From Bacteroidales bacterium (lineage in GTDB: Bacteria; Bacteroidota; Bacteroidia; Bacteroidales; UBA12077), in the NCBI GenBank assembly GCA_030637515.1, contig DAOWGM010000034.1, positions 1 through 50,191 on the forward strand: a DNA stretch of 50,191 nt. Reading direction: 5' to 3'. The notes beneath the pieces are model-generated. The model saw only the letters and a list, made by a program, of their open reading frames with translations, was not told where the DNA came from and made no database searches. Of this stretch, positions 1,089 to 46,216 are shown in pieces. The stretch's first letter is position 1. Each line of letters begins with the position of its first letter. The position numbers and the translations under genes were made by a program.

Positions 1089-2864
1089 ATGGAAAAAGTA
1101 AAATTAACTATAGATGATAAGCTTATTGAAGTAACAAAAGGTACTACTATTCATAAAGCAGCCAAAGAATTAGGAATTGATATCCCTGTGCTTTGTTACA
1201 TGAATCTTGAAGATTTAAATATTGAAAACAAACCAGGTGGATGTCGTATTTGTGTAGTTGAAGTTGAGGGAAGAAATAATTTAGCTCCTTCATGTTCAAC
1301 TGAAGTTTGGGATGGTATGGTAGTTCATACACATTCAATGCGTGTTATTAACGCACGTAGAACAGTAATGGAATTTATTCTTTCTGATCACCCAAAAGAC
1401 TGCTTAACTTGTGCAAAATCAGGAAACTGTGATTTACAAGATATGGCTGTTAAATTAGGTGTTCGCGAAATTCCTGGACAAGAATATGCAGAAATGTCTG
1501 AATATAAAATCGATTTCTCTCCATCAATTATAAGAGATCTTGATAAATGTATTATGTGTCGTCGTTGCGAAATGATGTGTAACGATTTTCAAACCGTTGG
1601 TGCACTTTCTGCATTCCACCGTGGATTTGAAGCTGCTGTTGGACCTGCATTTGAAATGGAACTTGAAGATTCTCCTTGTACATATTGTGGTCAGTGTGTG
1701 GCTGTTTGTCCTACTGGAGCATTAACTGAAAAAGATCATACAAGAGATGTTATCAATGCACTTGCTGATCCTACAAAAACAGTTATTGTACAAACGGCTC
1801 CTGCAGTTAGAGCTGCTTTGGGTGAGGAATTTGGAATGGAGCCGGGAACATCAGTAACTGGCGAAATGGTTGCTGCATTGCGTCGTTTAGGATTCGATCA
1901 CGTTTTCGATACTGATTTCGCTGCCGATTTAACTATTATGGAAGAAGGTACTGAGTTATTAGATCGTTTAACGAAGCATTTAAATGGCGATAAAGATGTT
2001 AAATTACCAATTCTTACTTCTTGTTGTCCTGCCTGGGTTAGCTTCTTTGAGCATAACTTTCCAGAAATGAGTGATATACCTTCTACTGCGCGTTCTCCAC
2101 AACAAATGTTTGGAGCAATTGCAAAAACATATTTTGCTGATAAAATCAACGTAAAAAGAGAAGATTTAATCGTTGTTTCTATTATGCCATGTTTAGCTAA
2201 AAAATATGAAGCTCAACGCGATGAGTTTAAAGTAGACGGAAATCCTGATGTTGATTTCTCAATCTCAACTCGCGAGTTAGCTCATCTTATTAAAGAGGCA
2301 AACCTTGATTTAAATACATTACCAAAAGAAGACTTTGATAAGCCACTTGGCGAATCTTCAGGTGCTGGTGTTATTTTTGGTGTTACAGGTGGTGTTATTG
2401 AAGCTGCTACTCGTACTGCATATGAATTACATACAGGTAAAAAACTTGAAAAAGTAGAATTTGAACAATTACGTGGTTTCGAAGCTGTAAGAAAAGCAAC
2501 TGTCGATTTTGATGGTACTCCAATTAATATTGGTATAGCACACGGATTAGGACATGCTCGTAAATTGTTAGAAGATATAAAAGCTGGAAAATCAGAATTC
2601 CACGCAATTGAAATTATGTCTTGCCCTGGTGGTTGTATTGGTGGCGGTGGTCAACCATTGCACCATAGCGATTCTGGTATTTTGAAAGCACGTACAAAAG
2701 CAATTTATGCTGAAGATGCTGGTAAACCAATCCGTAAATCTCATGAGAATCCTTACATTATTAAACTATACGAAGAGTTCTTAGGAAAACCAATGAGCGA
2801 AAAAGCACATCATTTATTACATACTTGTTATTTCGATAAGAGTAGAAAAATTGAAATTAGCTAG
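1089..2864 (+). CDS. hydA: [FeFe]-hydrogenase catalytic subunit HydA (canonical)
   Basis: Catalytic subunit (591 aa) that interconverts protons and H2 at the H-cluster. Domains in order: N-terminal [2Fe-2S] plant-type domain (Cys36, 52, 55, 69), His-Cys [4Fe-4S] motif (His101, Cys105, 108, 114), 2x[4Fe-4S] ferredoxin (Cys154-164 and 197-207), then the H-cluster domain. All three signatures are intact: TSCCPAW (residues 310-316, including the proton-relay Cys312), MPCLAKKYE (366-374) and a third motif with ligands Cys511 and Cys515 in CPGGCIGGGGQP. The proton-path pair Glu286/Glu289 is also present. Length and domain order match the HydA of bifurcating HydABC enzymes, whose partners are NAD(H) and ferredoxin. 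It lies between hydB and hydC. This is the functional reference against which the altered paralog at 25535-27253 stands out. Confidence 0.97.
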   Translation: MEKVKLTIDDKLIEVTKGTTIHKAAKELGIDIPVLCYMNLEDLNIENKPGGCRICVVEVEGRNNLAPSCSTEVWDGMVVHTHSMRVINARRTVMEFILSDHPKDCLTCAKSGNCDLQDMAVKLGVREIPGQEYAEMSEYKIDFSPSIIRDLDKCIMCRRCEMMCNDFQTVGALSAFHRGFEAAVGPAFEMELEDSPCTYCGQCVAVCPTGALTEKDHTRDVINALADPTKTVIVQTAPAVRAALGEEFGMEPGTSVTGEMVAALRRLGFDHVFDTDFAADLTIMEEGTELLDRLTKHLNGDKDVKLPILTSCCPAWVSFFEHNFPEMSDIPSTARSPQQMFGAIAKTYFADKINVKREDLIVVSIMPCLAKKYEAQRDEFKVDGNPDVDFSISTRELAHLIKEANLDLNTLPKEDFDKPLGESSGAGVIFGVTGGVIEAATRTAYELHTGKKLEKVEFEQLRGFEAVRKATVDFDGTPINIGIAHGLGHARKLLEDIKAGKSEFHAIEIMSCPGGCIGGGGQPLHHSDSGILKARTKAIYAEDAGKPIRKSHENPYIIKLYEEFLGKPMSEKAHHLLHTCYFDKSRKIEIS

Positions 2865-19501: not shown

Positions 19502-20686
19502 TTAAATAAACTTCATACTAACTTCTTTCAGGAATTTACTTTCAAGTATTTCAGCAATTCTACGAACAACGGTTCTTCTTATCTCAAGTTCAATAGGTAA
19601 ATTCGGATCTTGATGTGCTATATTTACTCGGGTTCCTATGATGAACTGAATTTCATCACTTTCTTTAATAAGCTTTACAATCTGGTCGGCAGGACCTTTA
19701 CCAAGAATATAGTTGTTGTTATATACTTTTAATAATTCAGCTACTTTGCTCAGTGTAAGAATCCCTTCTGTTACTAAATCAATTCCATTCATGTACGAAA
19801 CGGGAGGTAAGTCAGGATCATGAAATTCAAACCCATCTTCAATTTCAAGCTCCAATTCACGAGAAATTATATCACCGGTAGTTGCTCCACAGAGTATTTT
19901 CTTACCTTCAAAATTTCTTACAGCATCAGCCAGTTCTTTGTCATTCTCTTCTTCATAAGGAGGACCAGTACAAATCAATAATTTTCGTGGTTCTCTGAAA
20001 TATACAGAAGCACAACTGGTGTCATCCTTTGATCGGTATCCATCATTTTGGTATGCAACATTTACAATCTTTCCAGCTAATCTATTAGCAGAAATCTGAG
20101 GTTTATTCTTAATTATTTTCTCGGTAAAACTTTCAAGATTATCATGTCCCCAACCAAAAGGAAATTTATCTGTTCCTAATCCTGATTGTGTAATGCCATC
20201 GCTGCAAAAAACTATTCTATCTTCTTTTTGAGCATAAAACGTACAGTTTTTTAAAACTTTACCCGCATTATTTTCAGTTTCTAATACAACACATTGCCAT
20301 CCTGGGTTAAATATCTTTTTATCTCTTATGATTATTGTTTCAGGATTATCGTATTCTAAAATTGTAGTTTTTCCATCAGCCTCAATGTCAATTATAGTAA
20401 ATGTAGAATAACTGATTTGTCTTTTACTACAAACCGGAAGTGTATTCATAATTATATCAGCAATTCGATTTACATCTTTATGTTCTTTTGTGAAATTAAG
20501 AGCCATGGTTGAAGTAAGAGTGGCTAGCATGTTGGCCTTTATTCCATGTCCCATTCCATCTGAAAGAACAATGACAGTTCTTTCTTCAGATTTAATCTTT
20601 TCTGAAAGAAAAACATCACCACAAATGCGTTCTCCTTCATGGTTTTTTTGCTGACAATCAACTTCTATATAAAACTTGTTATCCAT
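19502..20686 (-). CDS. SpoIIE/PP2C-type phosphatase linked to the hydrogenase sensor
   Basis: 394 aa. Residues 1-230 are a SpoIIE-type PP2C serine/threonine phosphatase with metal-binding aspartates in ICGD, LSDGMGHG, FCSDG and KDDTSC. Residues 230-394 form an additional domain of unknown role (starting LLICTGPP), seen with hydrogenase-linked phosphatases. It is the last gene of the leftward operon, only two bases after the HydS-type sensor. A phosphatase directly after HydS is also known from the Thermotoga hyd operon, so regulation of a phosphorylated target in response to the sensor's redox state is a fair inference. No kinase or anti-sigma partner is encoded in this arm. Confidence 0.8.
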   Translation of the reverse strand: MDNKFYIEVDCQQKNHEGERICGDVFLSEKIKSEERTVIVLSDGMGHGIKANMLATLTSTMALNFTKEHKDVNRIADIIMNTLPVCSKRQISYSTFTIIDIEADGKTTILEYDNPETIIIRDKKIFNPGWQCVVLETENNAGKVLKNCTFYAQKEDRIVFCSDGITQSGLGTDKFPFGWGHDNLESFTEKIIKNKPQISANRLAGKIVNVAYQNDGYRSKDDTSCASVYFREPRKLLICTGPPYEEENDKELADAVRNFEGKKILCGATTGDIISRELELEIEDGFEFHDPDLPPVSYMNGIDLVTEGILTLSKVAELLKVYNNNYILGKGPADQIVKLIKESDEIQFIIGTRVNIAHQDPNLPIELEIRRTVVRRIAEILESKFLKEVSMKFI

Positions 20687-20688
20687 TA

Positions 20689-22548
20689 TTACTCTTTCTT
20701 ATTCATTTTATATAGTTCAATAATGGAATTAAGCATTTGTTCTGTTTCCGATGCTCCTTCGCCTAAAAGGAAACCGATTTTTTGAACCATAGTCAGGTTT
20801 TTATCAATTACATCAGTCACTCTTTTTAAAACTTCCTCTTTTCTAACTTCAGGAGAGTACATATCACGGAAAACTGCCCCAACAATCTTATCCTTTCGTA
20901 TGGTAAATACGGAAAGGTTAAGTAGATTTTCATCGATATGAACATCGCGGTTTAAAATATTTTCTTTTGTAGAAAATACATTTGAAAACAAATGGTATAC
21001 GTTAAATGGAAGCAAAGTTTTAAGATCAGCTCCAACTAGTCCTGGAATAACTTCATCTATTGCTTTAGCTTCCTCACCAAGCATTTCAATAAAACTATTG
21101 TTTGATTGTATTATTTTAAGATTTTTATCAATTATCACTACTCCTGAAGGTAACTTCTGAAGCATGCTGCTTACTGTATCGGAGGCTTCTTTTGCTGTTT
21201 CTTTTTCCTTTTGAGCAATTTGTTCCGATTCCTGCAAAGCTTTTTGGGTCTGAGCCAATTTCTCATTAGTTGTTTTTAATGCTTTAATATAATCATGTCT
21301 ATTTCTTAATGAATAAGTCAAACACATATCTACCTTTGCCAAACCTTTTGCAACAGCTGTTGCAAAATCACGACAAGTATTATATCCGCATGCATTACAT
21401 CCTAAATCAGGGTCCTTACCTTCTTTGCCTATGGCTTTAAGAATCTCTTGAATTTTATCTTCGGAAGGAGTTTCTATCCTCTGATCATCAGCTTTAAATG
21501 TTCGCGAATAATCTAATTGCCAGAATTTATCAACTTCAGTTTTCCATTTCTTTAAATCAAATCCTTTGAGGCGTTTGTTTGCGTAATCCGTAACTCTTGT
21601 ATGACGAATATATTTTTCTCCCCCTTTACTTGTTCCAGGTCCCATAAGGCAGCCTTCACAGAAATACAAATTAAAGTGTTTTTTAATAGTTTCTATGTCC
21701 TTACTAAATTGTTTGGTTGCATTGATAATATTTGATGTGCCTTCCGCAGTAATAACTTCTCCTGTTAAGAGGTCTTCGCTAATATCAGCAGCCTGTAAAA
21801 GTCCATTTGAAATTGGAAATAAAGACCCTTTGTATCCTATTGGTGGATCGAATTCTGAAAACTCAACTGTTCCTTCGTGAATATCTCTTTCAGTAAATAA
21901 TTTCCTTAGTTCCTGGAATGTAATTACTGCATCAATTTTTCCATCATCCTTAAATAATAAAGCCTCGTCTTTGCTATCAATGCATGGACCTATATATGTA
22001 ATTTTACAATCCTTTCCATATAGTTTTCGAGCAATCTTTGCAGATGCAATCATGGGTGAAATCAATGGTGCAAGATTATCTATAATTTCAGGTTGAAATT
22101 TTTGGATATGCTGAACTACAACAGGACATGCACTTGAGATATAGTATTTTCCTTTAAAGTTTTTAAGTAATTCAGCATATTTTAGGGCAATTATATCAGC
22201 ACCGAATGAAACCTCGTTTACATAATCAAATCCTAAGTGCTTTATCATTTGAACAAATTTCCTGTAATCTGTAATATCATGAAACTCTCCTGAAATGCTG
22301 GGAGCTACAATAGCAACCTTTTTTTCATTTGATTTTAAAACATCTTTTGTTTCATCTAATGAATCGCGATAGACAATTGCGTCTTCTGGACAAACAGAAG
22401 TGCAATTCCCACATCCAATACATCTTTCCGGAATAATTCGTGCATAGTCTTTATTCAATTTTACTTCAATGGCATTTACAGGACAAACACGAACGCATGA
22501 GTAACTTAAATTACATTTATCTTTTATTATTTCTACAATTGGCTTCAT
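20689..22548 (-). CDS. HydS-type [FeFe]-hydrogenase-like sensor with PAS domain
   Basis: 619 aa. Order: N-terminal ferredoxin domain (Cys12, 18, 22 and Cys43, 46, 49, 53), a hydrogenase large-subunit-like domain (about 75-330), a [4Fe-4S] domain (CNACGYNTC, Cys384, 387, 392, then Cys409), a coiled coil (about 420-460) and a PAS domain (about 460-565). The H-cluster signatures are of the divergent sensory kind: SSACP (Cys141, with Ala in place of the proton-relay Cys), IGPC (Cys189) and CEGCLMGPG (Cys297, Cys300). The first ferredoxin cluster has Ser15 where the paralog has Cys. It therefore looks like a redox or H2 sensor, not an enzyme. Its output is probably the phosphatase encoded two bases downstream. 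Confidence 0.85.
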   Translation of the reverse strand: MKPIVEIIKDKCNLSYSCVRVCPVNAIEVKLNKDYARIIPERCIGCGNCTSVCPEDAIVYRDSLDETKDVLKSNEKKVAIVAPSISGEFHDITDYRKFVQMIKHLGFDYVNEVSFGADIIALKYAELLKNFKGKYYISSACPVVVQHIQKFQPEIIDNLAPLISPMIASAKIARKLYGKDCKITYIGPCIDSKDEALLFKDDGKIDAVITFQELRKLFTERDIHEGTVEFSEFDPPIGYKGSLFPISNGLLQAADISEDLLTGEVITAEGTSNIINATKQFSKDIETIKKHFNLYFCEGCLMGPGTSKGGEKYIRHTRVTDYANKRLKGFDLKKWKTEVDKFWQLDYSRTFKADDQRIETPSEDKIQEILKAIGKEGKDPDLGCNACGYNTCRDFATAVAKGLAKVDMCLTYSLRNRHDYIKALKTTNEKLAQTQKALQESEQIAQKEKETAKEASDTVSSMLQKLPSGVVIIDKNLKIIQSNNSFIEMLGEEAKAIDEVIPGLVGADLKTLLPFNVYHLFSNVFSTKENILNRDVHIDENLLNLSVFTIRKDKIVGAVFRDMYSPEVRKEEVLKRVTDVIDKNLTMVQKIGFLLGEGASETEQMLNSIIELYKMNKKE

Positions 22549-22571
22549 AACATAATAATTCTAAGTACACA

Positions 22572-22817: not shown

Positions 22818-23027
22818 TAGTATTTATTAGAAAAATTGAACCTGATTTTAGTTTCAGAATTTAATTGCAAGATAGCCATTTTATTTGATTTTAGTATAAT
22901 GATGCTGAGTATGTTGTAGGGTATAAAAATAATTTTCCATGATCAAAGCTTAAGTACGAGAGTGTTAAATGCCAGGTAGTCAGTAATTAAGGAGTATGGC
23001 GCGAAAGTGTTGCGGCCGAAACAAGAA

Positions 23028-23045
23028 GTGTTAATAAAATAACAA
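23028..23045. promoter_or_regulatory. Rex-like operator 1 before hydC2
   Basis: GTGTTAATAAAATAACAA fits the Rex palindrome TTGTTAA-N4-TTAACAA at 12 of 14 defined bases, with perfect TGTTA/TAACA arms. A rex gene lies in the downstream operon. Confidence 0.65.
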
Positions 23046-23062
23046 TGTTCAAAAAATAACAA
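23045..23062. promoter_or_regulatory. Rex-like operator 2 before hydC2
   Basis: ATGTTCAAAAAATAACAA fits the same palindrome at 11 of 14 bases and directly abuts operator 1. It covers the expected -33 region of the promoter whose -7 box starts at 23071. Confidence 0.5.
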
Positions 23063-23070
23063 TAAATTAC

Positions 23071-23078
23071 TATATTTG
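23071..23078 (+). promoter_or_regulatory. -7 box of the hydC2 operon promoter
   Basis: TATATTTG is an exact match to the Bacteroidota -7 consensus TAnnTTTG, 35 bases before the ATG at 23114. At the right distance upstream the -33 element is only TTC, inside Rex-like operator 2. Confidence 0.6.
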
Positions 23079-23113
23079 TAATATTGAGAAAACAGTTATA
23101 ATTCATTTTGTTT

Positions 23114-23575
23114 ATGCCAGAAGTAGAAAAAATATTGGAAAATTACCCTTTCGTTCAGAGAGATGATTTAATCCCTATTCTTCAGGAGATTCAAGATGAA
23201 ATTGGGTTTTTATCTGAAGATGCTATTGTAAAGGTGGGAAAATATCTGGATATACCTACAAGCAAAGTGTATGGCTTAGCTACTTTTTATAATCAGTTTA
23301 GATTTGAAGCTAAGGGGAAATACCATATTCGGATTTGTAACGGAGCTTCTTGTCACGTAAATACAAATTCATTGATTCTGAATGAACTTCATAAGAAATT
23401 AAGACTCAGAAATGGAGAAATTACGAAAGATGGTATTTTTAGTTTCGAAGAAACAACATGTATGGGAGCTTGTGGATTTGGTCCGATATTAGCTATCAAT
23501 GATAAGTATTATACTAAAGTGAATGTCAAAAAACTCAATGAGGTAATTGAATTTTACATGAATCTGGAAGAATAA
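23114..23575 (+). CDS. Second HydC (thioredoxin-like [2Fe-2S] subunit)
   Basis: 153 aa from the ATG at 23114; a TTG two codons earlier is less likely. NuoE-like layout: helical N-terminus ending KVYGLATFYNQF, then a complete [2Fe-2S] ligand set Cys75, Cys80 (CNGASC) and Cys116, Cys120 (CMGAC). It leads the rightward operon hydC2-hydB2-hydA2 and begins five bases before hydB2. Of the three subunits of this second complex, it is the one that keeps all its expected ligands. Confidence 0.9.
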   Translation: MPEVEKILENYPFVQRDDLIPILQEIQDEIGFLSEDAIVKVGKYLDIPTSKVYGLATFYNQFRFEAKGKYHIRICNGASCHVNTNSLILNELHKKLRLRNGEITKDGIFSFEETTCMGACGFGPILAINDKYYTKVNVKKLNEVIEFYMNLEE

Positions 23576-23579
23576 ATTT

Positions 23580-25529
23580 ATGTCTGAAGCAAAAGAAAAT
23601 AAATATAAAGTTTTTCTGACTGAAAAGTTTATAAATAATTTAAACGGTTCTTTAGAAAAAGAAGACATAGAGATAATTGCCGAAATTAAACGCGAAAAGA
23701 TCAGAAAACCGGTAATTACAATTGGATCAAATAGTCCATCTCTTATTGCAGGAGCAGATGAATTAAAATTAAGTATTAAGGAATATATTAAGGAAAGAGA
23801 AATTGATGCAGATCTTGTTGAGGTAGGAACACTTGGAATGACATCTCTTGAACCTATTATTTCAGTTCAACTTCCAGGAAAAACCAAATTGTTTTTTAAA
23901 AATGTTGCTTCAGAAAATATTATTTCAATACTCGACGGTACTTTTAATAATTATATTCAGGAGGAGAATGTTCTGGGTCAGATCAGAAATGAAATACTGG
24001 AATCCTATGAGCGTATTCCATATCTTGATGAACTTGCATATTTTCAGAATCAGCAGCGTTTAAATTTAAAAAACTGTGGGTTTATTGATCCGAATTCTAT
24101 TGAAGAATATCTGGCACATGACGGCTACAAATCATTTTTTGAAACAATTTATAAAAATACACCTGAGGAAATTTGTGATATAATTGAGCAAAGTAAACTT
24201 CGTGGTCGAGGAGGAGATGGATATCCAACCGGGAAAAAGTGGAAAATTGCTTTAGAAACGGTTAGTGAGCAAAAGTATTTAATTTGCAATGCTGGGGAAA
24301 GTGATCCTGGGGCTTTTATGGAGCGATTGTTAATAGAGAGTGATCCGCATAAAGTAATAGAAGGAATTGCAATTTCTGCGTATGCAATTTCTGCACAAAA
24401 AGCATACATTTATATTGAATCAGAATATTCATTGGCAATTGAAAGATTAAAAAATGCCATAAAACAAGCAAAGGACTATGGTATTTTAGGTCACGATATT
24501 TTGCAAAGTGGATATAATCTGGATATTATAATTCGAAAAGGAGCAGGTGCATATGTTTGTGGTGAAGAAACAGCATTAATTAGTAGTATCGAAGGAGAAA
24601 GAGGAAGACCGCGCTCAAAACCTCCTTATCCTGCAATCAAGGGATTGTTTGGAAGACCAACTGTAGTAAACAATGTTGAAACTTTGGTAAATATTCCGTT
24701 AATTATTGACAAAGGAGCTGAATGGTTTTGTTCTATCGGAACAGAAGAAAGTAAAGGTACAAAAGTCTTTTCAATATCAGGTAAGGTAGGAAATCCTGGA
24801 CTTGTTGAAGTTGAAATGGGAACCAAACTGAGAGATATTATTTATAGAGTTTCTGGAGGAATAGCAAATAGTAAAAGATTTAAAGCGGTTCATATTGGCG
24901 GACCTTCAGGAGGATGTCTTTCTGAGGAACACTTGGATACTCTTATTGATTATGATGCGGTTTTATTAACGGGAACTTCCTTAGGATCAGCAGGTATGGT
25001 TGTTCTTGATGAGGATAATTGTATTCTTGATAATGTAAAATATTATATGGATTTTCTGCAAAAGGAAAGTTGTGGAATCTGTATTCCATGTAGAGAAGGA
25101 ACTCGAAGAATGCATGAAATACTTGAAAATATTACAAAAAAACCAAAGGACGAAAACGGAAATACAACATTGCAGCGATTTAAGGGTGTTATGCAATTGG
25201 AGAATATAGCTGAAGTATTAAAAGATACTTCTTTGTGTGGACTAGGTCGAAAAGCAGCAAATCCTGTATTAAGCACATTAAAGTGGTTTCGAAATGAATA
25301 TGAAGAGCATATTTTTGAGCGAAATTGTGAAGCAGGTGTATGTCAGGAATTAAGAACATTTGAAATAAATGTGGAAGCTTGTAATGGTTGTACTATATGT
25401 GCCAAGAAATGTCCTTCTGATGCTATATTTGGGACACCTCAAAATGCTCATTTTATTGTTCAGGATAAATGTATTGGTTGTGGTATTTGCTTTGATACCT
25501 GTAAATTTTCCGCAATCATTAGTAAGTAG
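23580..25529 (+). CDS. Second HydB-like flavin subunit with degenerate N-terminal domain
   Basis: 649 aa. The N-terminal thioredoxin-like domain (about 40-125) is present in length and shape but has no cysteine: the first Cys in the protein is residue 166, so its [2Fe-2S] cluster must be missing. The NuoF-like core follows: RGRGGDGYPTGKKW (208-221), NAGESDPGAF (237-246, where NADE is usual), GAGAYVCGEET (321-331) and NNVET. The [4Fe-4S] ligands Cys498, 501, 504 and 553 are intact, as is the C-terminal 2x[4Fe-4S] ferredoxin (Cys601-611 and 631-641). The change of the conserved Asp to Gly239 removes an FMN-contacting residue known in NuoF. Spacing of 5 bases to hydA2. Confidence 0.9.
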   Translation: MSEAKENKYKVFLTEKFINNLNGSLEKEDIEIIAEIKREKIRKPVITIGSNSPSLIAGADELKLSIKEYIKEREIDADLVEVGTLGMTSLEPIISVQLPGKTKLFFKNVASENIISILDGTFNNYIQEENVLGQIRNEILESYERIPYLDELAYFQNQQRLNLKNCGFIDPNSIEEYLAHDGYKSFFETIYKNTPEEICDIIEQSKLRGRGGDGYPTGKKWKIALETVSEQKYLICNAGESDPGAFMERLLIESDPHKVIEGIAISAYAISAQKAYIYIESEYSLAIERLKNAIKQAKDYGILGHDILQSGYNLDIIIRKGAGAYVCGEETALISSIEGERGRPRSKPPYPAIKGLFGRPTVVNNVETLVNIPLIIDKGAEWFCSIGTEESKGTKVFSISGKVGNPGLVEVEMGTKLRDIIYRVSGGIANSKRFKAVHIGGPSGGCLSEEHLDTLIDYDAVLLTGTSLGSAGMVVLDEDNCILDNVKYYMDFLQKESCGICIPCREGTRRMHEILENITKKPKDENGNTTLQRFKGVMQLENIAEVLKDTSLCGLGRKAANPVLSTLKWFRNEYEEHIFERNCEAGVCQELRTFEINVEACNGCTICAKKCPSDAIFGTPQNAHFIVQDKCIGCGICFDTCKFSAIISK

Positions 25530-25534
25530 TTGTT

Positions 25535-27253
25535 ATGGTAATAGATATAGAAGTTAACAGCAAAAAGATTCAGGCTAAAACGGGTGAAACTATTCTTGAG
25601 GCACTCAATCGTAATGGAATAAAAGTTCCAACAATGTGTCGTATGGAGGGGTTTTCATCAACCGGAGCATGTCGTTTGTGTGTAGTTGAAGTTGAAGGTA
25701 AATCTGGTTTAATTCCTTCTTGTTCGCATCCAATTCTTGAACCTATTAAAATAAAAACTCATTCTCAGCGCGTAATTAGTGCAAGGAAAATGATTGTCGA
25801 ATTATTATTATCAAATCATCCTGATGACTGCTTGTATTGTATTCGTAATGGAAATTGTGAACTTCAGAATTTAGCTGTTGAGCTAAATGTACGAGAACGT
25901 AGAATCTCAGGCGAAAAATCAAAAGCAAACTCAGATCATTCCAGTCCAGGAGTTGTAAGAGATCCATCAAAATGTATTTTATGTGGTCGTTGTGTAAGAG
26001 TTTGTGATGAAATTCTTGGTGTTTCTGCTTTTGAATTCATGAAGCGTGGAAATCAAACGGCGATTGCAACAAGTATGAATAAAGATTTGAACTTTTCAAA
26101 TTGTGTAAATTGCGGACAATGTATTTTGCTTTGCCCAACAGGAGCCTTACACGAAAAAACAAATTTTGATATTGTTCAGGATATGATTAGTAATCCTGAA
26201 ATAAAGGTAATAGCACAATATTCACCTGTAATTTCATTGTCATTAGCAGAAGAAATTGGATTACGAACAGGAAAAGATATAAACGGTATTTTAAATGCTG
26301 TATTAAAAAGAATTGGTTTCGATAAGGTTTTTGATAATTCGTTTGGTGCAGATTTAGCAATTTATGAGCAAGCAGCAGAGTTGGCTGATCGTATTAATAA
26401 TGATGAAAACCTTCCGATGATAAATAGTAATTGTCCAGCTTGGATAAAGCACATGGAACAGACTCATCCGGATATGATTGATCATGTTTCAACTTGCAAA
26501 TCACCACAACAAATGTTAGGCGCATTGATAAAGAGTTATTACGCCGAAAAAGAGAAAATATCACCTGATAAAATTTATACGGTTTCTATAACACCTTGTA
26601 CAGCAAATAAATTTGAGGCTCAACGCGAAGAAATGACGCATAAAGGAGTATCAGATATTGATGTTGTAATTACAACAAGAGAACTGGTAAAATTAATTCA
26701 TCTATATGGTATTGATATGCAATCTTTAGATGAAGAAATGCCTGATCCTCCTTTTAATACAAGAAGTTCGGTTGGGAAAATGGTTTCTGTTACAGGTGGA
26801 TTATCTGAAGGAATAGTAAGAACATTAAGCTATCATTTGAATGGGAAGGAGCTAAGTAACCTTAAAATTCCGAAGCTTCGCGGATTTAAAGATCAAAAAG
26901 CAGCAATTGTAAAAATGGCTAATAAACAGGTGTTATTTGCAGCTGCTAATGGGCTCAAGCATGCCGAAGAACTTATTAAAGAAATAAGAGAAGGCAAAAG
27001 TAATTATCATTATATTGAAATAATGGCTTGTCCAAACGGTTGTATTAACGGAGGCGGTCAACCATTTAATAATGATGAAAAAATATTAAAAAACAGATTA
27101 AAAGCAATATATGATCTGGATGAAAAGGAAGCTATAAATGTGGCTCATAAAAACTCAAATGTAATTGAACTTTATAATGAGTTTTTAGGTGAACCATTAA
27201 GTAAAAAATGTAGAAAGTTGTTACATACAAAATATACTCAAAGAGATATTTAA
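25535..27253 (+). CDS. Second HydA-like subunit with altered H-cluster pocket
   Basis: 572 aa with the full HydA domain order: [2Fe-2S] (Cys35, 46, 49, 63), His-Cys cluster (His95, Cys99, 102, 108), 2x[4Fe-4S] (Cys147-157 and 190-200) and H-cluster domain. The four H-cluster ligands remain (Cys300, 355, 499, 503). However, signature L1 is NSNCPAW with Asn299 replacing the proton-relay Cys, L2 is TPCTANKFE with Thr353 and Asn358 replacing Met and Lys, and Gln279 replaces a proton-path Glu; Glu282, Arg286, Ser319 and Met497 are kept. Numbering happens to equal that of the Clostridium enzyme CpI. A cluster probably binds, but normal H2 turnover is doubtful. Neighbouring sensor genes suggest a signalling role (inference). 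Confidence 0.9.
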   Translation: MVIDIEVNSKKIQAKTGETILEALNRNGIKVPTMCRMEGFSSTGACRLCVVEVEGKSGLIPSCSHPILEPIKIKTHSQRVISARKMIVELLLSNHPDDCLYCIRNGNCELQNLAVELNVRERRISGEKSKANSDHSSPGVVRDPSKCILCGRCVRVCDEILGVSAFEFMKRGNQTAIATSMNKDLNFSNCVNCGQCILLCPTGALHEKTNFDIVQDMISNPEIKVIAQYSPVISLSLAEEIGLRTGKDINGILNAVLKRIGFDKVFDNSFGADLAIYEQAAELADRINNDENLPMINSNCPAWIKHMEQTHPDMIDHVSTCKSPQQMLGALIKSYYAEKEKISPDKIYTVSITPCTANKFEAQREEMTHKGVSDIDVVITTRELVKLIHLYGIDMQSLDEEMPDPPFNTRSSVGKMVSVTGGLSEGIVRTLSYHLNGKELSNLKIPKLRGFKDQKAAIVKMANKQVLFAAANGLKHAEELIKEIREGKSNYHYIEIMACPNGCINGGGQPFNNDEKILKNRLKAIYDLDEKEAINVAHKNSNVIELYNEFLGEPLSKKCRKLLHTKYTQRDI

Positions 27254-27268
27254 CTATTTAAGCATTTT

Positions 27269-27553
27269 ATGAGTAAAGAAAGAAACACAAAAAGAGATCT
27301 TGTTTATACTGTTAAAAACAGATGTAGAGTATGCTATACCTGTGTTCGAGAGTGTCCTGCAAAAGCAATTAAAATAATTAATGGTCAAGCTGAAGTACTA
27401 AACGAGCGTTGTATTGTTTGTGGTAATTGTACAAAAGTTTGCAGCCAGGGCGCTAAAGTGTTTTTAAATACAACAGATAATGTTTTTGATTTACTAAAGT
27501 CTAACAAAAAAAAATATAGCAATAGTAGCGCCGAGTTTTCCTGCAGAATTTAA
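27269..27553 (+). CDS. HydS-histidine kinase, 5' fragment (before frameshift)
   Basis: 94 codons: a 2x[4Fe-4S] ferredoxin domain with both clusters complete (Cys19, 22, 25, 29 and Cys48, 51, 54, 58), then the first strand of a HydS-type hydrogenase-like domain. The frame leaves the family sequence at a run of nine A (27506-27514) and stops soon after. Removing one A gives KSNKKNIAIVAP, which aligns without gaps to KSNEKKVAIVAP of the intact sensor at 20689-22548 and joins the downstream fragment into one 663-residue protein. The tail of about a dozen residues after the A-run is therefore out of frame and not meaningful. Confidence 0.8.
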   Translation: MSKERNTKRDLVYTVKNRCRVCYTCVRECPAKAIKIINGQAEVLNERCIVCGNCTKVCSQGAKVFLNTTDNVFDLLKSNKKKYSNSSAEFSCRI

Positions 27554-27584: not shown

Positions 27585-29261
27585 ATGGTACGATCAATAG
27601 GTTTTGATGTTGTTTCGGAAGTAGCATTTGGTGCTGATTTGGTTGCAAAAAAATATAAAGATTTAATTGATCAGGGGAATGATAAGACTTATATTTCCTC
27701 TGATTGCCCAGCTGTTGTTTCTTATATTGAACATTATCATACAGCTTTAGTGAAAGATTTAGTCCCGATTGCATCTCCTATGGTTGTAATGTCGAGAGTA
27801 ATGAAAAAGAAATATGGCGAAGATATCAATATAACATTCATTGGTCCGTGTGTCGCAAAAAAATCAGAATCGGATGAAGTTGATGAAATGATAACCTTTA
27901 CTGAGTTGCGCGATATTTTTGAAGAAAAAGGAATTACACAAAAAACAGTAAAGCCTACGGAATTTGATCCTCCACTAGGAGGAAAAGGTGCAATTTTTCC
28001 TATAAGTAGAGGTCTTCTACAAACAGCAGGTATTACAGATGATGTTTTTGATGGAAATATTATTGTTGCCGAAGGTAGAAACAACTTTCAGGAAGCAATT
28101 AGCGAATATGAAGACGGATTGATAAAATCGCAACGTTTAGAATTACTTAGTTGCGAAGGATGTATTATGGGACCTGGAATGAAGAGTAAGGGAAAACATT
28201 ATGCCCGAAGAATTCTTGTGAACAATTATGTGCAAAAAAAGATAAGCTCATTAAACGAAGAAGAGTGGCAAAGTCATGTAGATGAATATATTAATATCGA
28301 TTTAACTGCAAAGTTTGAGCAAAAAAGAAAAGATTTAAGATTTCCTGATTTAAACGAAGTTAAAAAAGTGTTGGAGTCTCTTGGCAAGCTAGATCCAAAA
28401 GATCATTTAAATTGTGGTGCTTGTGGTTATGATTCATGTGAGGAGCATGCCACTGCTATTGTTCAGGGATTAGCTGAAAACGAAATGTGCTTGCCTTTTA
28501 CTATCGAAAAATTACATAATTCTGTAAATGAATTGGCAGTTACAAACGATAAGTTAACATCAATTCAGCAGGCTTTAAGACAATCTGAGAAAATGGCAAG
28601 TATGGGGCAATTATCAGCTGGAATTGCACATGAATTAAATAATCCTTTGGGTGTTGTAATAATGTATGCCAATATATTGCTTGAAGAAACATCAAAGGAT
28701 TCAGCTGTTTATAAAGATCTGAAGCTAATTGTTGATCAAACAAACAGATGTAAAAAAATAGTTGGAGGCTTACTTAACTTTGCCCGTAAAAATCAGGTAA
28801 ATGCAAGTAAAACTAATATAATTGCACTTTCGGAACAATGTATAGATGCAATTGTCGTTCCGAAAAATATTAATATTAAGATTGATTCTTCAGAGCTTAA
28901 AGATGCTTACGCAATGCTTGATCACGAACAAATGACGCAAATTATTACAAACCTTTTGAAAAATGCGATTGATGCTATGATTGAAAAAGGAGAAATAGAA
29001 ATTATGCTTGAAGATGACAATAATAATGTGATATTTAGAGTGAGAGATTCTGGTATTGGAATTGAATCTGAAAATATTGATAAAATTTTCGAGCCATTTT
29101 ATACAACAAAAGATATTGGAAAAGGTACCGGATTAGGACTGGCTACTGCATATGGAATTGTAAAAATGCACAAGGGTAAAATTACTGTTGAATCAAATAC
29201 TAATACAGACATTGGTCCAACAGGGACAGAGTTTAAAATATCATTACCAAGATTTCAATAA
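27585..29261 (+). CDS. HydS-histidine kinase, 3' fragment (after frameshift)
   Basis: 558 codons from the first ATG after the shift; the coherent frame begins near 27516, so the family sequence starts before this ATG. It has the sensory hydrogenase-like domain with SSDCP (Asp for the proton-relay Cys, Cys41), IGPC (Cys89) and CEGCIMGPG (Cys190, Cys193), then a [4Fe-4S] domain (Cys277, 280, 285, 302), a short coiled coil, and a histidine kinase core: phospho-acceptor His349 in AHELNNP, N box NLLKNAIDAM, DSGIGI and GTGLGLA. No PAS domain is seen, unlike the paralog. It would read redox state or H2 and signal to the receivers encoded just after it. Whether it is made depends on the frameshift being an error or being bypassed. 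Confidence 0.8.
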   Translation: MVRSIGFDVVSEVAFGADLVAKKYKDLIDQGNDKTYISSDCPAVVSYIEHYHTALVKDLVPIASPMVVMSRVMKKKYGEDINITFIGPCVAKKSESDEVDEMITFTELRDIFEEKGITQKTVKPTEFDPPLGGKGAIFPISRGLLQTAGITDDVFDGNIIVAEGRNNFQEAISEYEDGLIKSQRLELLSCEGCIMGPGMKSKGKHYARRILVNNYVQKKISSLNEEEWQSHVDEYINIDLTAKFEQKRKDLRFPDLNEVKKVLESLGKLDPKDHLNCGACGYDSCEEHATAIVQGLAENEMCLPFTIEKLHNSVNELAVTNDKLTSIQQALRQSEKMASMGQLSAGIAHELNNPLGVVIMYANILLEETSKDSAVYKDLKLIVDQTNRCKKIVGGLLNFARKNQVNASKTNIIALSEQCIDAIVVPKNINIKIDSSELKDAYAMLDHEQMTQIITNLLKNAIDAMIEKGEIEIMLEDDNNNVIFRVRDSGIGIESENIDKIFEPFYTTKDIGKGTGLGLATAYGIVKMHKGKITVESNTNTDIGPTGTEFKISLPRFQ

Positions 29262-29277: not shown

Positions 29278-29673
29278 ATGGGAGATGTAAAAAAAACTGT
29301 ACTAATTGCTGATGACGATGAGGATTATTTATTTCAAATGAAAATGTATGTTGAAAGTTTTGGTTTTAATGTAATAACAGCCGATAATCAAAAAGAAGCT
29401 GAGATTTTGATCCAAAATACAAAACCAGATCTTGCAATATTTGATTTAATGATGGAAAACGACGATAGCGGATTTATACTTTGTTATAAAATGAAAAGAA
29501 GACATCCAAAAGTTCCTATTATTCTTGCAACGGCTGTAGCATCAGAAACGGGTATTTCATTTGGTGTAGATACCGATTCTGATAAAAAATGGATAAAAGC
29601 GGATCTGTATCTGGAAAAAGGCATCAGGAAAGACCAATTACACAAAGAAATTAATAAATTGCTAAAAATATAA
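29278..29673 (+). CDS. Single-domain response regulator
   Basis: 131 aa from the ATG at 29278, 16 bases after the kinase stop; an earlier in-frame ATG inside the kinase gene is not favoured. CheY-like receiver only: acidic pocket ADDDED (11-16), phospho-acceptor Asp56 in IFDLMM, Thr85 in ATA and Lys114 in LEKG. There is no output domain, so it acts by protein contact or as a phosphorelay step. It is the likely partner of the HydS-histidine kinase. Confidence 0.85.
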   Translation: MGDVKKTVLIADDDEDYLFQMKMYVESFGFNVITADNQKEAEILIQNTKPDLAIFDLMMENDDSGFILCYKMKRRHPKVPIILATAVASETGISFGVDTDSDKKWIKADLYLEKGIRKDQLHKEINKLLKI

Positions 29674-29687: not shown

Positions 29688-30806
29688 ATGGAGAAATTAA
29701 AGGTAATGGTGGTAGATGATGAGCCGGGTATAAGGTCTGGTGTGAGTCGAATATTAAATAATTTTACGGTGAGTTATCCATTTATGGATACTGATATTGG
29801 ATTTGATTTAATTGAAGTTGGAACAGGAGAAGAAGCAATTGAAAAAGTAAAGTCTGAACATATTGATATTGTTTTATTAGACAATAAGTTACCTGGCATT
29901 TTAGGAACCGAAGTTCTTGAATATATCAATAAGAATAATCCTGAAATATTGGTAATGATGATAACATCTTATGCATCGCTTGAGTTGGCTGTAAAAGCTA
30001 CTAATAATGGAGCATATGATTTTATTCCTAAACCATTCACTCCTCAGGAATTGAAATCTTCCTTGGAGAATGTATCCAAACACCTTTTTCTGCGTGGAAT
30101 GACCAGAAAAATGAATAAGGAAGGAAAAGAAATTCGTTTCCAGTTTTTATCTGTTTTATCACATGAACTTAAAGCACCTTTAAATGCAATTGAAGGTTAT
30201 TTGCGCATAATGCAAGATAAAGAAAATGGTGATGATATTGCTTCTTATGATCAGATGATAGACAGATCATTACAACGAATTAAAGGAATGAGAAACCTTA
30301 TAATGGATCTCTTGGATTTAACTAAAATTAATTTTGAAAGGAAAACAGAGAAATTTCAGAATCTTAATTTAGGTGAAATTGCACAATTATCAATCGAAGC
30401 AATGAACCCATATGCAATACAAAAAGATGTAAAAATTTCTTTAAGTGATGAAGAAAATATTGTTTTAAAGGCAGATCCAGGTGACATTGAAATTATTTTT
30501 AATAACCTGATATCCAACGGAGTAAAATATAATAAGGATGGAGGTACTGTTGATGTCAAACTTATTAAAACCGATAATAAGGTAAATATAATTGTGAAAG
30601 ACACAGGAATAGGATTATCAAAAGAAGAATCAGATAAGTTGTTCCATGAATTTTTTAGAGTTAAAAGTGAACAAACAAGACACATTACGGGTAGCGGATT
30701 AGGTTTATCTATTGTAAAAAGAATAGCCGATCTTTATATGGGAGAAATTAAGGTTGATAGTACTCCCGGAGTTGGATCATCGTTTACTGTAATCTTGCCA
30801 ATGTAA
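29688..30806 (+). CDS. Receiver-histidine kinase hybrid
   Basis: 372 aa. A receiver comes first (DDE at 10-12, Asp65, Thr93, Lys115), then a histidine kinase with His159 in LSHELKAPLNA and a HATPase domain (NLISNGVKYN, DTGIGL, GSGLGLS). There is no membrane segment, so it is cytoplasmic. A receiver in front of a kinase means its activity is probably set by an upstream phospho-donor, here likely the HydS-linked kinase. Its own target is not evident, as no DNA-binding response regulator is encoded nearby. It ends 42 bases before rex. Confidence 0.85.
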   Translation: MEKLKVMVVDDEPGIRSGVSRILNNFTVSYPFMDTDIGFDLIEVGTGEEAIEKVKSEHIDIVLLDNKLPGILGTEVLEYINKNNPEILVMMITSYASLELAVKATNNGAYDFIPKPFTPQELKSSLENVSKHLFLRGMTRKMNKEGKEIRFQFLSVLSHELKAPLNAIEGYLRIMQDKENGDDIASYDQMIDRSLQRIKGMRNLIMDLLDLTKINFERKTEKFQNLNLGEIAQLSIEAMNPYAIQKDVKISLSDEENIVLKADPGDIEIIFNNLISNGVKYNKDGGTVDVKLIKTDNKVNIIVKDTGIGLSKEESDKLFHEFFRVKSEQTRHITGSGLGLSIVKRIADLYMGEIKVDSTPGVGSSFTVILPM

Positions 30807-30848: not shown

Positions 30849-31475
30849 ATGAACAGACTTCCCGAAAAGACAATAGGCAGATTAAGTGAGTATCGTAGGA
30901 CATTACTAAATTGTCTGGCGAAAGGGAAAACACATATTTATTCTCACGAACTTGCTAATTTACATAACATAACAGCGGTACAAGTGCGTCGGGATATAAT
31001 GTTGATTGGTTATTCAACAACACTTAAAAAAGGTTACGATGTTAAAGCTTTAATTGACGTTATTGGTGATATAATTGATACTGAAAAAGGGCTTAATGCA
31101 GCAGTTATTGGTGTTGGTAATTTAGGAAGAGCAATCACAACGTATTTCCAGGGAAAACGAACAAAACTAAAAATTGCAGCTACTTTTGATACCGATCCAG
31201 ATAAAACAAATCGTGTTATATCAGGAGTTAAGTGCTTTCCAATGTCCGATTTAAGTAAGATTATTAAAGACCAAAACATTTCAATAGGGGTACTTACTGT
31301 ACCTCCTGAAGATGCTTCTGCAGTTGCCGAAATGCTTATTATGGCTGGCATAAAAGGAATTCTGAATTATACTTCAACACCATTAAATGTTTCGCCAAAC
31401 GTTTATCTCGAAGAGTATGATATGATTACTTCTCTTGAAAAAGTAGCTTATTTTGTAAAAGAGAAAAACGTATAA
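30849..31475 (+). CDS. rex: Redox-sensing transcriptional repressor Rex
   Basis: 208 aa. N-terminal winged helix (TIGRLSEYRRTL, then ITAVQVRRDI, the family's recognition-helix region) and a C-terminal Rossmann domain with GVGNLGRAI for NAD(H). Rex binds DNA when NADH/NAD+ is low and lets go when NADH rises, so it matches fermentative NADH load to hydrogenase expression. Rex-like palindromes are found before this operon (23028-23062) and before the maturation genes (41910-41927). The gene is downstream of the sensor kinases and 35 bases before the RibF-like gene. Confidence 0.92.
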   Translation: MNRLPEKTIGRLSEYRRTLLNCLAKGKTHIYSHELANLHNITAVQVRRDIMLIGYSTTLKKGYDVKALIDVIGDIIDTEKGLNAAVIGVGNLGRAITTYFQGKRTKLKIAATFDTDPDKTNRVISGVKCFPMSDLSKIIKDQNISIGVLTVPPEDASAVAEMLIMAGIKGILNYTSTPLNVSPNVYLEEYDMITSLEKVAYFVKEKNV

Positions 31476-31510: not shown

Positions 31511-32443
31511 ATGCAGATTCACAGGAATTTTGAAAGCTTAAGCAGAATTAAGAATGCAGTAGTTACTACGGGTACATTTGATGGTGTTCATATCGGACAT
31601 AAAGTAATCATTGATAGACTTAATTTCTTAGCAAATAGTATTCAAGGTGAGTCGGTATTAATTACCTTTCATCCGCATCCACGAAAAGTTCTTTATCCTG
31701 ACACAGCTGGTAAAGACCTAAAGCTAATCAATTCTCAAAAAGAGAAAATACATTTACTTGAAAAAACAGGATTAGATCATTTGGTTATTCTCAATTTTAC
31801 CCGAGAATTTGCTGAAACAACTTCACAAGAGTTTGTTGAAGAAATCCTTCTCGGCAAGCTTGGTGCAAAAATTATTATTGTTGGATTTAATCATCATTTT
31901 GGACATAATCGTGAAGGTGATTATTCTTACTTATATGAATTAACAAAAACACATGATTTTCGTGTTGAGGAGATTCCTGAACAGGATTTGGAGAACGAAA
32001 CAATTAGTTCAACAATTACACGTAAAGCTCTCACTGAAGGGCGTGTTCAAAGAGCAAATGCATATCTCGATCATTTTTTTATTATCTCTGGTGATTTAAT
32101 AAAAGGGAGTCAAAAGTGTAGAGAACTTGGTTTTTCAACGCTAAAATTAGTTGTTGAAGAAGTTGAAAAAATTGTACCAAAAGATGGCGTTTATGCGGTA
32201 GGAGTTGAGTCTGAAGGAAGAAGGCTTAGGGGAATGCTAAATATAAAAACCAAAGATGAAGAAGCAAAACCCGATATTCAGGTTCATGTTTTTGATTATT
32301 ATTCTGAATTTGTTTTAGAAAATAAAAATGCCACTGTTACTTTTCACAAAAGAATGCGCGATGAACTTAATATTGATGATTCAAAAAAACTTAAAGATCA
32401 ATTAGAGATTGATAAAGCAGAAATCGAAGAACTGATATATTAG
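31511..32443 (+). CDS. RibF-like FAD synthetase with degenerate flavokinase domain
   Basis: 310 aa. The N-terminal FMN adenylyltransferase domain looks intact: TTGTFDGVHIGHKVI, HPHPRK, VGFNHHFGHNREGD and ISSTITRKAL. The C-terminal riboflavin kinase domain keeps its length and frame (RELGF, DGVYAVGV, GMLNI, VHVFDY, RMRDEL) but its active-site motif PTAN is STLK, NIG.RPT is NIKTKDE, and the catalytic Glu before VH is Gln. It could make FAD from FMN but probably cannot phosphorylate riboflavin. It is 35 bases after rex in an operon full of flavin and Fe-S proteins, so it may be a specialised paralog; a normal RibF is expected elsewhere in the genome. Confidence 0.8.
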   Translation: MQIHRNFESLSRIKNAVVTTGTFDGVHIGHKVIIDRLNFLANSIQGESVLITFHPHPRKVLYPDTAGKDLKLINSQKEKIHLLEKTGLDHLVILNFTREFAETTSQEFVEEILLGKLGAKIIIVGFNHHFGHNREGDYSYLYELTKTHDFRVEEIPEQDLENETISSTITRKALTEGRVQRANAYLDHFFIISGDLIKGSQKCRELGFSTLKLVVEEVEKIVPKDGVYAVGVESEGRRLRGMLNIKTKDEEAKPDIQVHVFDYYSEFVLENKNATVTFHKRMRDELNIDDSKKLKDQLEIDKAEIEELIY

Positions 32444-44788: not shown

Positions 44789-46216
44789 ATGAAATTTTAT
44801 CCAGAACAATACAAGATTAAGGATCAACGAATGAAACCATTTATTGATCCGGAAGAAATCTGGGATTTTATAAATAATTCAAAACCGACAAAAGAAAGAG
44901 TTCGTGAGATTATTGCAAAATCCTTAAATAAAGAAAGATTAAATCTGGAAGAAACAGCAGTCTTAATTAATGCAACAGATCCTGAATTAGTTGAGGAAAT
45001 AAAACAAGGAGCAAAAGATTTAAAAACGAAGGTTTATGGAAATCGTATTGTTCTATTTGCTCCATTGTACGTAGGAAATAAATGTACAAACAATTGTAAA
45101 TATTGTGGTTTTAGAGTAACTAATAAGGAAGCAGTTCGACAAACACTTTCTGAACAGGAATTAATTGCAGAAGTTGAAGCTTTGGAAGATAATGGTCAGA
45201 AAAGATTGATTTTAGTTTATGGTGAGCATAAGCATTATTCTCCTGAGTTTATTGCCGAAAATGTTAGAACTGTTTATGGTGTTAAAAAAGGAAATGGTGA
45301 AATCCGTCGTGTAAATATAAATGCCGCTCCTCTTGATATTGATGGATTCAGAACTGTAAAAGAAGCTGGAATTGGAACGTATCAGGTTTTCCAGGAAACT
45401 TATCATCCCGAAGAATATAAAAAATACCATTTAGGTGGTAAAAAAAGAGATTTTGATTACAGATTAACTTCTTTAGATCGTGCTCAAGAAGCAGGATTAG
45501 ATGATGTTGGAATTGGTGCTTTATTTGGACTTTACGATTGGAGATATGAGGTGTTGGCTATGGTTCGTCACACGAATCATTTTGAAGCTTGTTATAATGT
45601 TGGACCACATACTTTATCATTCCCAAGAATTCAGGATGCATCGTCAATTGATGTTGATCCAAAGTATATGGTTAACGATGACGATTTTGTGAAGTTAATA
45701 GCAATTTTAAGATTAGCAGTTCCTTATACTGGAATGATTTTAACAGCAAGAGAGTCAGAGCAAGTGCGCCGTGAAGTTATGGCTTTTGGTGTTTCCCAAA
45801 TTGATGGTGGAACTAAAATAGAATTAGGATCGTATCAAGAAAGTCAGAACGAAGAGCAAAATCTTAATCGTGAGCAGTTTGTTATTAGTGACAATCGATC
45901 ATTAGCTGAAATTATTGATGAGTTAATCGAAAATGAATATTTACCATCATTCTGTACAGCTTGTTATCGTTTAGGAAGAACGGGAGAACACTTTATGGAG
46001 TTTTCGGTTCCCGGTTTTATAAAACGATTCTGTACCCCAAATGCAATTTTAACTTTAGCTGAGTATATTGAAGATTATGCTACTCCTGAGACTGGTGAGA
46101 AAGCGTGGAAGATTATTGATAAAGAGATTAAAGGTTTAGATAATGAAAAAGTAGTTAGCCAATTAAATGAAAGAATTGCTAAAATTAAGAATGGCGAAAG
46201 AGATATGTATTTTTAA
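44789..46216 (+). CDS. hydG: [FeFe]-hydrogenase maturase HydG
   Basis: 475 aa. Radical-SAM tyrosine lyase that makes the CO and CN- ligands of the H-cluster diiron site. The N-terminal radical-SAM motif is CTNNCKYC (Cys99, 103, 106), and the C-terminal second [4Fe-4S] motif is CxxCx22C (Cys389, 392, 415) in FCTACYRLGRTGEHF, which separates HydG from the tyrosine lyase ThiH. The usual length matches. An alternative start 14 codons in (MKPFIDPEEIW) is possible. HydE and HydF are not in this window. It is followed by two small ACT-like proteins. Confidence 0.95.
   Translation: MKFYPEQYKIKDQRMKPFIDPEEIWDFINNSKPTKERVREIIAKSLNKERLNLEETAVLINATDPELVEEIKQGAKDLKTKVYGNRIVLFAPLYVGNKCTNNCKYCGFRVTNKEAVRQTLSEQELIAEVEALEDNGQKRLILVYGEHKHYSPEFIAENVRTVYGVKKGNGEIRRVNINAAPLDIDGFRTVKEAGIGTYQVFQETYHPEEYKKYHLGGKKRDFDYRLTSLDRAQEAGLDDVGIGALFGLYDWRYEVLAMVRHTNHFEACYNVGPHTLSFPRIQDASSIDVDPKYMVNDDDFVKLIAILRLAVPYTGMILTARESEQVRREVMAFGVSQIDGGTKIELGSYQESQNEEQNLNREQFVISDNRSLAEIIDELIENEYLPSFCTACYRLGRTGEHFMEFSVPGFIKRFCTPNAILTLAEYIEDYATPETGEKAWKIIDKEIKGLDNEKVVSQLNERIAKIKNGERDMYF

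Follow-up and report, generated by a model that had tools for sequence, protein, structure and literature searches.

The closest arrangement that we found in print to the locus described here is that of Hydrogenedentota BfuABC sub-types IV and V, in which the trimeric hydrogenase is encoded together with a group-C3 T subunit bearing a PAS or histidine-kinase domain (PMC11406978; here and below, published statements follow excerpts of the cited sources). The proton path of the group-A [FeFe]-hydrogenases is described as strictly conserved, and in the Clostridium enzyme CpI, the variants E279A/Q and C299A/S leave <1% of H2 release, while C299D retains 30-80% of the activity (PMC6226526). With regard to the electron-bifurcating (Bfu) enzymes, the [2Fe-2S] cluster B5 of HydB is said to be present in all of them (PMC9304861), the HydB [2Fe-2S] cluster (B1/B5) has been discussed as belonging to the bifurcation centre (PMC9499530, PMC9304861), and Ala, Met, Phe and GGPSG make up the bifurcation signature of HydB (Losey 2020, PMC7311640). 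The HydS sensors carry Cys at the relay position in 17% of the sequences, and Gly, Ser or Thr replaces Met353 (PMC10055695). TamHydS of group D has no group-A path, keeps Glu282, bears Lys for Arg286 and works slowly via a proposed other path (PMC10407848). H2 sensing is putative for HydS too (PMC8924675).

The window, i.e., the whole stretch of 50,191 nucleotides analyzed in this study, encodes HydC2 (23108..23575, +), a NuoE-like [2Fe-2S] subunit with four cysteines kept, HydB2 (23580..25529, +), the FMN/NADH subunit, and HydA2 (25535..27253, +) together and in this order. HydA2 is an intact open reading frame of 572 amino acids, assigned by family searches, the alignment with CpI and fold as a catalytic-type subunit of group-A [FeFe]-hydrogenase. 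Its domain order is an N-terminal [2Fe-2S] domain, a His/Cys cluster, two [4Fe-4S] clusters, the H-domain and the small-subunit domain, and the family search found neither a PAS nor a kinase domain in HydA2. HydA2 scored 423.1 bits against TIGR02512 ([FeFe] hydrogenase, group A), above the cut-off of 405.95, and 708.7 bits against NCBIfam NF040763 (group A6), below the cut-off of 765 (HydA1 in the same window scored 889.3). The AlphaFold model (mean pLDDT 78, with 82-97 in the ten-residue blocks of 211-500 and <55 in much of 91-200) and the top PDB fold match in Foldseek, T. kivui HydA 8a6t (TM 0.84; sequence E 5e-151), confirm the HydA fold only.

Since phmmer aligned residues 210-514 of HydA2 with CpI without a gap, the CpI numbering is usable as is, and HydA2 then reads Q279, E282, R286, N299, C300, S319, T353, C355, N358, E361, M497, C499 and C503. 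The L1 motif NSNCPAW (26423..26443, +) has Asn299 in place of the relay Cys and retains the ligand Cys300. The L2 motif TPCTANKFE (26591..26617, +) comprises Thr353, the ligand Cys355, Asn358 and Glu361, and the L3 motif EIMACPNGCINGGGQ (27017..27061, +) comprises Met497, the ligands Cys499 and Cys503, and Asn501. The codon for Gln279, which is Glu in the proton path of CpI, lies at 26369..26371 (+). Thus, the group-A proton path is incomplete with Q279 and N299, but E282 and S319 are retained, and the H-cluster ligands at 300, 355, 499 and 503 are all Cys as in electron-bifurcating HydABC. Further changes are N501 (usually Gly), S230 for Ala and V417 for Phe. The paralogue HydA1 (1089..2864, +) bears the canonical motifs IMEE, TSCCPAW and MPCLAKKYE. 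The sequence-only reading had named Gln279, Asn299, Thr353, Asn358 and the retained ligands by comparison with these HydA1 motifs, and both the motifs and the residues, in CpI numbering, are as it claimed.

The first genome scan detected five close HydA2 orthologues in Bacteroidales MAGs (71-91% identity) and one remote match (32%); the five were counted once, as they look identical to five records of the larger genome set. The family-level scan gave some match in all 25 genomes and full-length HydA2 in 16 besides that of the window, and HydA2 was found at E 1e-155 in 128 of the 393 genomes of the order-level scan. We fetched 140 loci and aligned 152 HydA rows. Removal of four partial rows (the HydA2 fragments L084, L085 and L086, and a stray fragment in L151) left 137 HydA2 including that of the window and 11 HydA1-type controls. 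The latter are canonical at E279, E282, C299, S319, M353 and K358 without exception (11/11) and include L202 (G113:C20), which is HydA1-like by phmmer score. Five more matches in the order joined later, each represented by the gene stretch alone, and stand outside the 137-row set; among these, G106 has Leu at the position of E361, and G400, in which HydA1 is present, has a HydA2 that passes a test on four residues yet lost E282 and S319. Outside the order, E 1e-155 was reached in 2 of 295 class and 19 of 296 phylum genomes, the own genome being counted in both. The 19 outside loci have TSCCPGW at L1 and MPC..KK[FY]E at L2, and E279 was read in 17 of them, the pattern giving no reading for L221 and L226. 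As the cut-off of E 1e-155 overlooks more diverged HydA2, the altered clade described below is probably undercounted.

The full set of E279, E282, C299, S319, M353 and K358 is carried by 56 of the 137 HydA2, and the remaining 81, the window's among them, lack it. These 81 altered HydA2 form one clade of Bacteroidales with the canonical rows rootward (SH-aLRT 98 in the IQ-TREE quick tree and 99 in the FastTree tree). Both trees were built without the trait columns and the columns beside them and carry long-branch warnings; the HydB2 tree (125 rows) gives the same split with one change. Among the 81, E279 is lost in 73, E282 in 20, C299 in 39, S319 in 21, M353 in 35 and K358 in 30. The sequence-only reading had proposed to see whether the four substitutions of the window co-occur in a clade. 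All four positions are non-canonical in 16 of the 137 HydA2, and these are scattered over several lineages, so that the substitutions do not form a unit. Within the genus of the window (13 full-length rows, window included), Gln279 occurs in all 13, Thr353 in four (the window, G024, G010 and G019), Asn358 in three (the window, G024 and G008) and Asn299 in the window only. The nearest relative, L068 (91% identity), has Cys299 together with Gln279, Thr353 and Asn358, and Asn299 is thus probably the latest of the four changes in this lineage, judging from these sequences. The codons around 299 read ATA AAT AGT AAT TGT CCA GCT TGG in the window and ATA AGT AGT TGT TGT CCG GGT TGG in L068, so that the change from Cys to Asn takes two base changes within one codon.

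Residue 299 is variable in the altered clade: Cys is retained in 42 of the 81, and the replacements are Ser (12), Asp (11), Asn (5), His (4), Ala (3), Arg (3) and Phe (1). Parsimony on the IQ-TREE tree (137 rows) demanded 14 changes between Cys and not-Cys at 299, 12 between Cys-or-Asp and other residues, 13 at M353 and 5 at E279; the corresponding numbers on the FastTree tree were 17, 14, 14 and 5. As 42 of the 81 have Cys299 and 11 have Asp, the residue with which CpI C299D is 30-80% active, relay loss is no rule of the clade, and a clade-wide loss of the relay Cys was rejected. C299 loss is strongly associated with the loss of M353 and K358 in raw counts, but the link with M353 loss was not significant after correction for kinship (11 independent pairs, median p 0.375, FastTree tree), and no tie of relay loss to the loss of M353, K358 or E279 was significant in independent pairs. 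At 299 and 353, part of the altered clade has converged on residues like those of HydS, with M497 kept. The natural Asp299 HydA2 (L088, L093, L095, L097, L098, L100, L107, L150, L160, L169 and L176) are the wild counterparts of CpI C299D, and Arg299 is found in L191, L194 and L195 (SRCPAL, SRCAAW and SRCPAW, respectively).

We calculated dN/dS with our own Nei-Gojobori script for ten pairs of our choice, some of the pairs other than that of the window and L068 having high dS. The window and L068 gave 0.082 for the whole gene and 0.074 for residues 210-515; five pairs of the altered clade gave 0.03-0.10 and four canonical pairs 0.03-0.06, and one canonical pair was saturated. A dN/dS of about 0.08 argues against the decay of HydA2, and the pseudogene reading was rejected on this ground. 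Likewise, the earlier suggestion of an electron-transfer relic fits poorly with these values and with the conservation of all 19 Fe-S and H-cluster cysteines in 81/81 altered HydA2, as well as in 56/56 canonical ones. We thus regard it as highly improbable that HydA2 is decaying or that Asn299 is an assembly or sequencing error. An error could be suspected from the adjacent HydS2-HK gene being frameshifted in an A run, from Cys299 in the nearest relative and from the source genome being an assembly of 185 contigs with an estimated contamination of 7.7%, but L068, which belongs to another genome, likewise has Gln279, Thr353 and Asn358, and relay loss recurs across many other genomes. The worry about an artefact of one genome stays with the Asn299 codon alone, which depends on this genome.

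The partner subunits changed along with HydA2. HydB2 of the window has Ser241 for Gly (24300-24302), assigned by motif to the NADH/flavin loop, and this position is Gly in 50/50 canonical copies but replaced in 75/75 altered ones (74 with Ser, 1 with Ala). The region around 241 presumably corresponds to the Glu-Ser peptide of complex I that moves with the redox state of the flavin. Three N-terminal cysteines are missing from HydB2 of the window, which has P53, T84 and T88 instead; all three are present in 50/50 canonical but only 39/75 altered copies. By our own mapping, we take these cysteines for the ligands of a [2Fe-2S] cluster that the T. maritima structure names B1 and the Bfu review B5, and HydB2 of the window would then depart from the Bfu enzymes in lacking B5. 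Loss of the N-terminal cysteines was seen in 17 of 25 altered copies with relay loss vs. 19 of 50 others, as raw counts that ignore the tree. None of the 75 altered copies has lost a HydB cysteine of the FMN-side and C-terminal clusters (481 to 641) or any of the four HydC cysteines. The residues of the bifurcation signature, mapped by motif, are present in HydB2 of the window (A245, M247, F397 and GGPSG at 440-444), and in the altered clade, A and M are each found in 63/75, F in 68/75 and Ser of GGPSG in 49/75.

These data bear on the idea that the H-domain is structural only and HydABC2 serves as a hub for NADH-ferredoxin electron transfer or docking, in which the H-cluster site need not load or react. 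The replacement of Gly241 in all altered HydB2 would suit such a hub, and so would the pattern of drift: of the positions invariant in canonical HydA2, the altered clade retains most in the three N-terminal cluster regions (fractions of 0.95, 0.93 and 0.90), fewer near L3 (0.87) and in the N part of the H-domain (0.75), and fewest in the middle part and the small-subunit part (0.67-0.68). Nevertheless, the four H-cluster ligands are kept in 137/137 HydA2 and M497 in 131/137 (75/81 in the altered clade), the H-domain is under the low dN/dS given above, and the HydB2 N-terminal cysteines are incomplete in 36 of the 75, so that the wiring varies too. Altogether, we consider the hub quite unlikely.

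The divergence of HydA2 is accompanied by the presence of HydA1. An orthologue of the window HydA1 (at least 980 bits) was found in 75 of the 136 genomes tested; canonical HydA2 occurs in 0/75 where HydA1 is present and in 56 of the 62 rows where it is missing. The six altered rows without HydA1 are those of G113, G382, G153 (twice), G085 and G339. Five of them are from an incomplete genome or one with HydA1 in a congener: HydA1 is found in the congeners of G382 and in a congener each of G153 (78% complete) and G339 (83% complete), and G085 is 70% complete. The sixth, G113 (98% complete), has a different group-A HydA on C20, which is 48% identical to HydA1. The order sample, with cut-offs of E 1e-250 for HydA1 and E 1e-155 for HydA2, comprised 66 genomes with both genes (65 with altered HydA2, and G400), 57 with canonical HydA2 but no HydA1, five with altered HydA2 but no HydA1, 82 with HydA1 only and 183 with neither. 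A strict partnership of HydA1 with HydA2 was rejected, since HydA1 occurs without a HydA2 match in these 82 of the 393 genomes. As the presence of HydA1, the residue loss and the change in neighborhood to HydS1/SpoIIE (see below) fall on one branch, they are associated but prove no cause, and being one event on the tree, the associations carry little statistical weight. Besides HydA2, the genome carries two group-A HydA genes, namely HydA1 and one at G000:C90. The motif of the latter (L001), TSCSPGW, places Ser at the site of the CpI ligand 300; the HydA1 chain of A. woodii does the same, and Ser at this position is common in Bfu sub-types (PMC11406978). The H-cluster maturase HydG is encoded in the window (44789..46216, +), and HydE and HydF are encoded elsewhere in the genome.

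HydABC2 is embedded in sensory genes. Upstream and divergent lie a sensory-type [FeFe]-hydrogenase homologue, HydS1 (20689..22548, -), with a PAS match just below the Pfam cut-off, and an adjoining SpoIIE-type phosphatase (19502..20686, -). We label HydS1 as putative group C from its architecture. The 559-base region between HydS1 and HydC2 (22549-23107) is likely a shared control region. Downstream, HydS2-HK is split into an N-terminal piece (4Fe-4S; 27269..27553, +), ended by the frameshift, and a main piece with the H-cluster domain, an FeS domain, HisKA and HATPase (27585..29261, +; frame open from ~27507). The frameshift lies in a run of nine A (27500-27520), the gene is a single frame in the relatives L006-L010, and the split is either a sequencing error or a recent break. 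Then follow a response regulator receiver (29278..29673, +; named from sequence, with the ATG start of our choice), a receiver and histidine kinase protein identified by family search (29688..30806, +), the redox-sensing repressor Rex (30849..31475, +) and, as the last gene of the conserved run, a gene at 31511..32443 (+) that we take from its sequence to be RibF-like, which neighbors HydA2 in 46 of the 61 loci of the altered clade that could be assessed.

Neighbors were called by phmmer with the window proteins (>80 bits, within 9.5 kb, on contigs long enough), the intact L007 copy being the query for HydS2. HydS1 lies beside HydA2 in 61/66 altered vs. 0/35 canonical testable loci, SpoIIE in 58/63 vs. 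0/32 and Rex in 59/64 vs. 4/39. HydS2 adjoins HydA2 in 61/72 altered and also in 44/46 canonical testable loci, and is therefore not special to the altered clade. A search for HydS1 in 36 canonical genomes gave a match in 34; the best match was beside HydA2, in the place of HydS2, in 31 and away from HydA2 in G370, G305 and G078. Among the altered loci, L103 and L203 are without HydS1, SpoIIE, HydS2 and Rex, L121 is without HydS1, SpoIIE and HydS2, and L175 has HydA2 alone. The 11 testable altered loci (out of 72) that lack HydS2 include the Arg299 loci L191 and L194. These two and L195, the third Arg299 locus, have HydS1 and SpoIIE, and HydS2 and the response regulators were not seen there (the contig of L195 is cut on that side). 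By pattern reading, the relay equivalent of HydS2 is Asp (SSDCP) in 59/62 altered and 37/46 canonical loci, like the active CpI C299D; the pattern gave no reading of the HydS1 relay residue in 45 of 62 loci.

The main rival to a signaling HydABC is that HydABC2 is still metabolic, being slower or biased in direction, with another proton route (water, Glu361 or replacement residues) and a low H2 flux beside HydABC1. It gains from TamHydS, which is slow without the group-A path (PMC10407848), from E282 in 61/81 and R286 in 72/81 of the altered clade and E361 in 137/137, from Cys or Asp at 299 in 53 altered copies, and from the bifurcation signature, intact in the window and largely so in the clade. 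On the other hand, E279 is lost in 73/81 and the Gln and Ala variants of CpI are <1% active, the clade drifts at positions 230, 353, 358, 417, 423 and 427 with Arg, His or Phe as the relay residue in some, and the sensory neighborhood goes with the residue change. We deem this metabolic role unlikely. It seems to us slightly better than an even chance, instead, that HydABC2 is a paralogous HydABC which no longer serves bulk catalysis and persists as a slow, H2- and redox-responsive partner of the adjacent sensory genes, although HydA2 lacks a PAS or kinase domain and keeps M497, both of which count against a sensory role. The sequence-only reading had foreseen a poor catalyst that may be a sensor. 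The former part holds by analogy with CpI E279Q and C299S/A only; as group D HydS is active without the group-A path, 'slow' is probably a safer forecast for HydA2 than 'dead'. The latter is favored, rather than proven, by the neighborhood and the HydS-like residues at 299 and 353.

We picture the partner of sensory genes as follows. In a lineage also carrying HydA1 as the canonical HydABC hydrogenase, HydA2 may have diverged, keeping the H-cluster site and most of the electron wiring but losing selection for fast proton transfer. How reduced the H-cluster is would be governed by NADH, acting via the FMN of HydB2, and by ferredoxin, acting via the Fe-S clusters. H2 would bind and be split, and proton exit would be slow because E279 and, in the window, C299 are gone, so that, rather than turning over, the H-cluster would rest in a reduced or hydride state that depends on H2. 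This state, or the slow electron flow, might be read by HydS1 and the SpoIIE phosphatase and/or by HydS2-HK and the response regulators, with Rex reading NADH/NAD+ in parallel. We infer the loading of the H-cluster, the slow turnover, the contact with HydS, kinase or phosphatase, and the output. The more specific proposal is that a heterotrimeric sensory HydABC evolved once in Bacteroidales from a group-A3 hydrogenase, freed from bulk catalysis in genomes with the paralogue HydA1, as an H2 sensor poised by NADH and ferredoxin and feeding the HydS1/SpoIIE and HydS2/kinase branches beside Rex. This proposal is tentative and rather doubtful at present. If true, the readings of H2 and NADH are combined in a single gene cluster.

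The group-A proton path has so far been studied mainly by mutation. Here, a natural series is offered by 81 HydA2 in which the path is dismantled to different degrees with the metal sites kept, and by 56 canonical relatives in the same order. With this series, it can be tested how much of the proton path is indispensable to an H-cluster protein, and whether bifurcating hydrogenases can be turned into sensors. For annotation, it is a warning that the presence of a HydABC operon in a member of the Bacteroidales is not in itself a sign of H2 production.

In the open-licence PMC literature (a search covering no bioRxiv and few subscription journals), we found no account of the altered clade, of the repeated relay loss or of the ties to HydA1, HydS1, SpoIIE and Rex. 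The Hydrogenedentota BfuABC resemble our locus in encoding the trimer with a sensory-type hydrogenase homologue, but their P1/P2/P3 motifs are in general conserved (P1 xTSCxPxWx), and the excerpt describing them makes no mention of a SpoIIE/HydS1 pair, Rex or proton-path loss (PMC11406978). HydA2 shares with the group C and D HydS of T. maritima and T. mathranii the replacement of the relay Cys with the ligands kept (PMC10055695, PMC10407848), and with group C HydS a small residue for Met353 (N299 and T353 in the window; PMC10055695). It differs in that HydS is a single chain with a signaling domain, whereas HydA2 is a group-A subunit of an NADH-linked trimer and has no such domain; moreover, Met497, kept in HydA2, is not conserved in group C HydS (Ser in TmHydS). 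The regulatory [NiFe]-hydrogenase, a slow-acting homologue of the hydrogenases with a histidine kinase at its side, has a sensing role; its protein family and metal site are unrelated to those of HydA2, and the likeness is an analogy only. With the electron-bifurcating HydABC (A3/BfuABC) of T. maritima, Thermoanaerobacter kivui and Acetobacterium woodii, the complex of the window shares the subunit set, the fold and the Fe-S cysteines, the latter completely in HydA and HydC and for the most part in HydB. Unlike them, HydA2 is without E279, the relay Cys, M353 and K358, and HydB2 has Ser241 and is without the three N-terminal cysteines.
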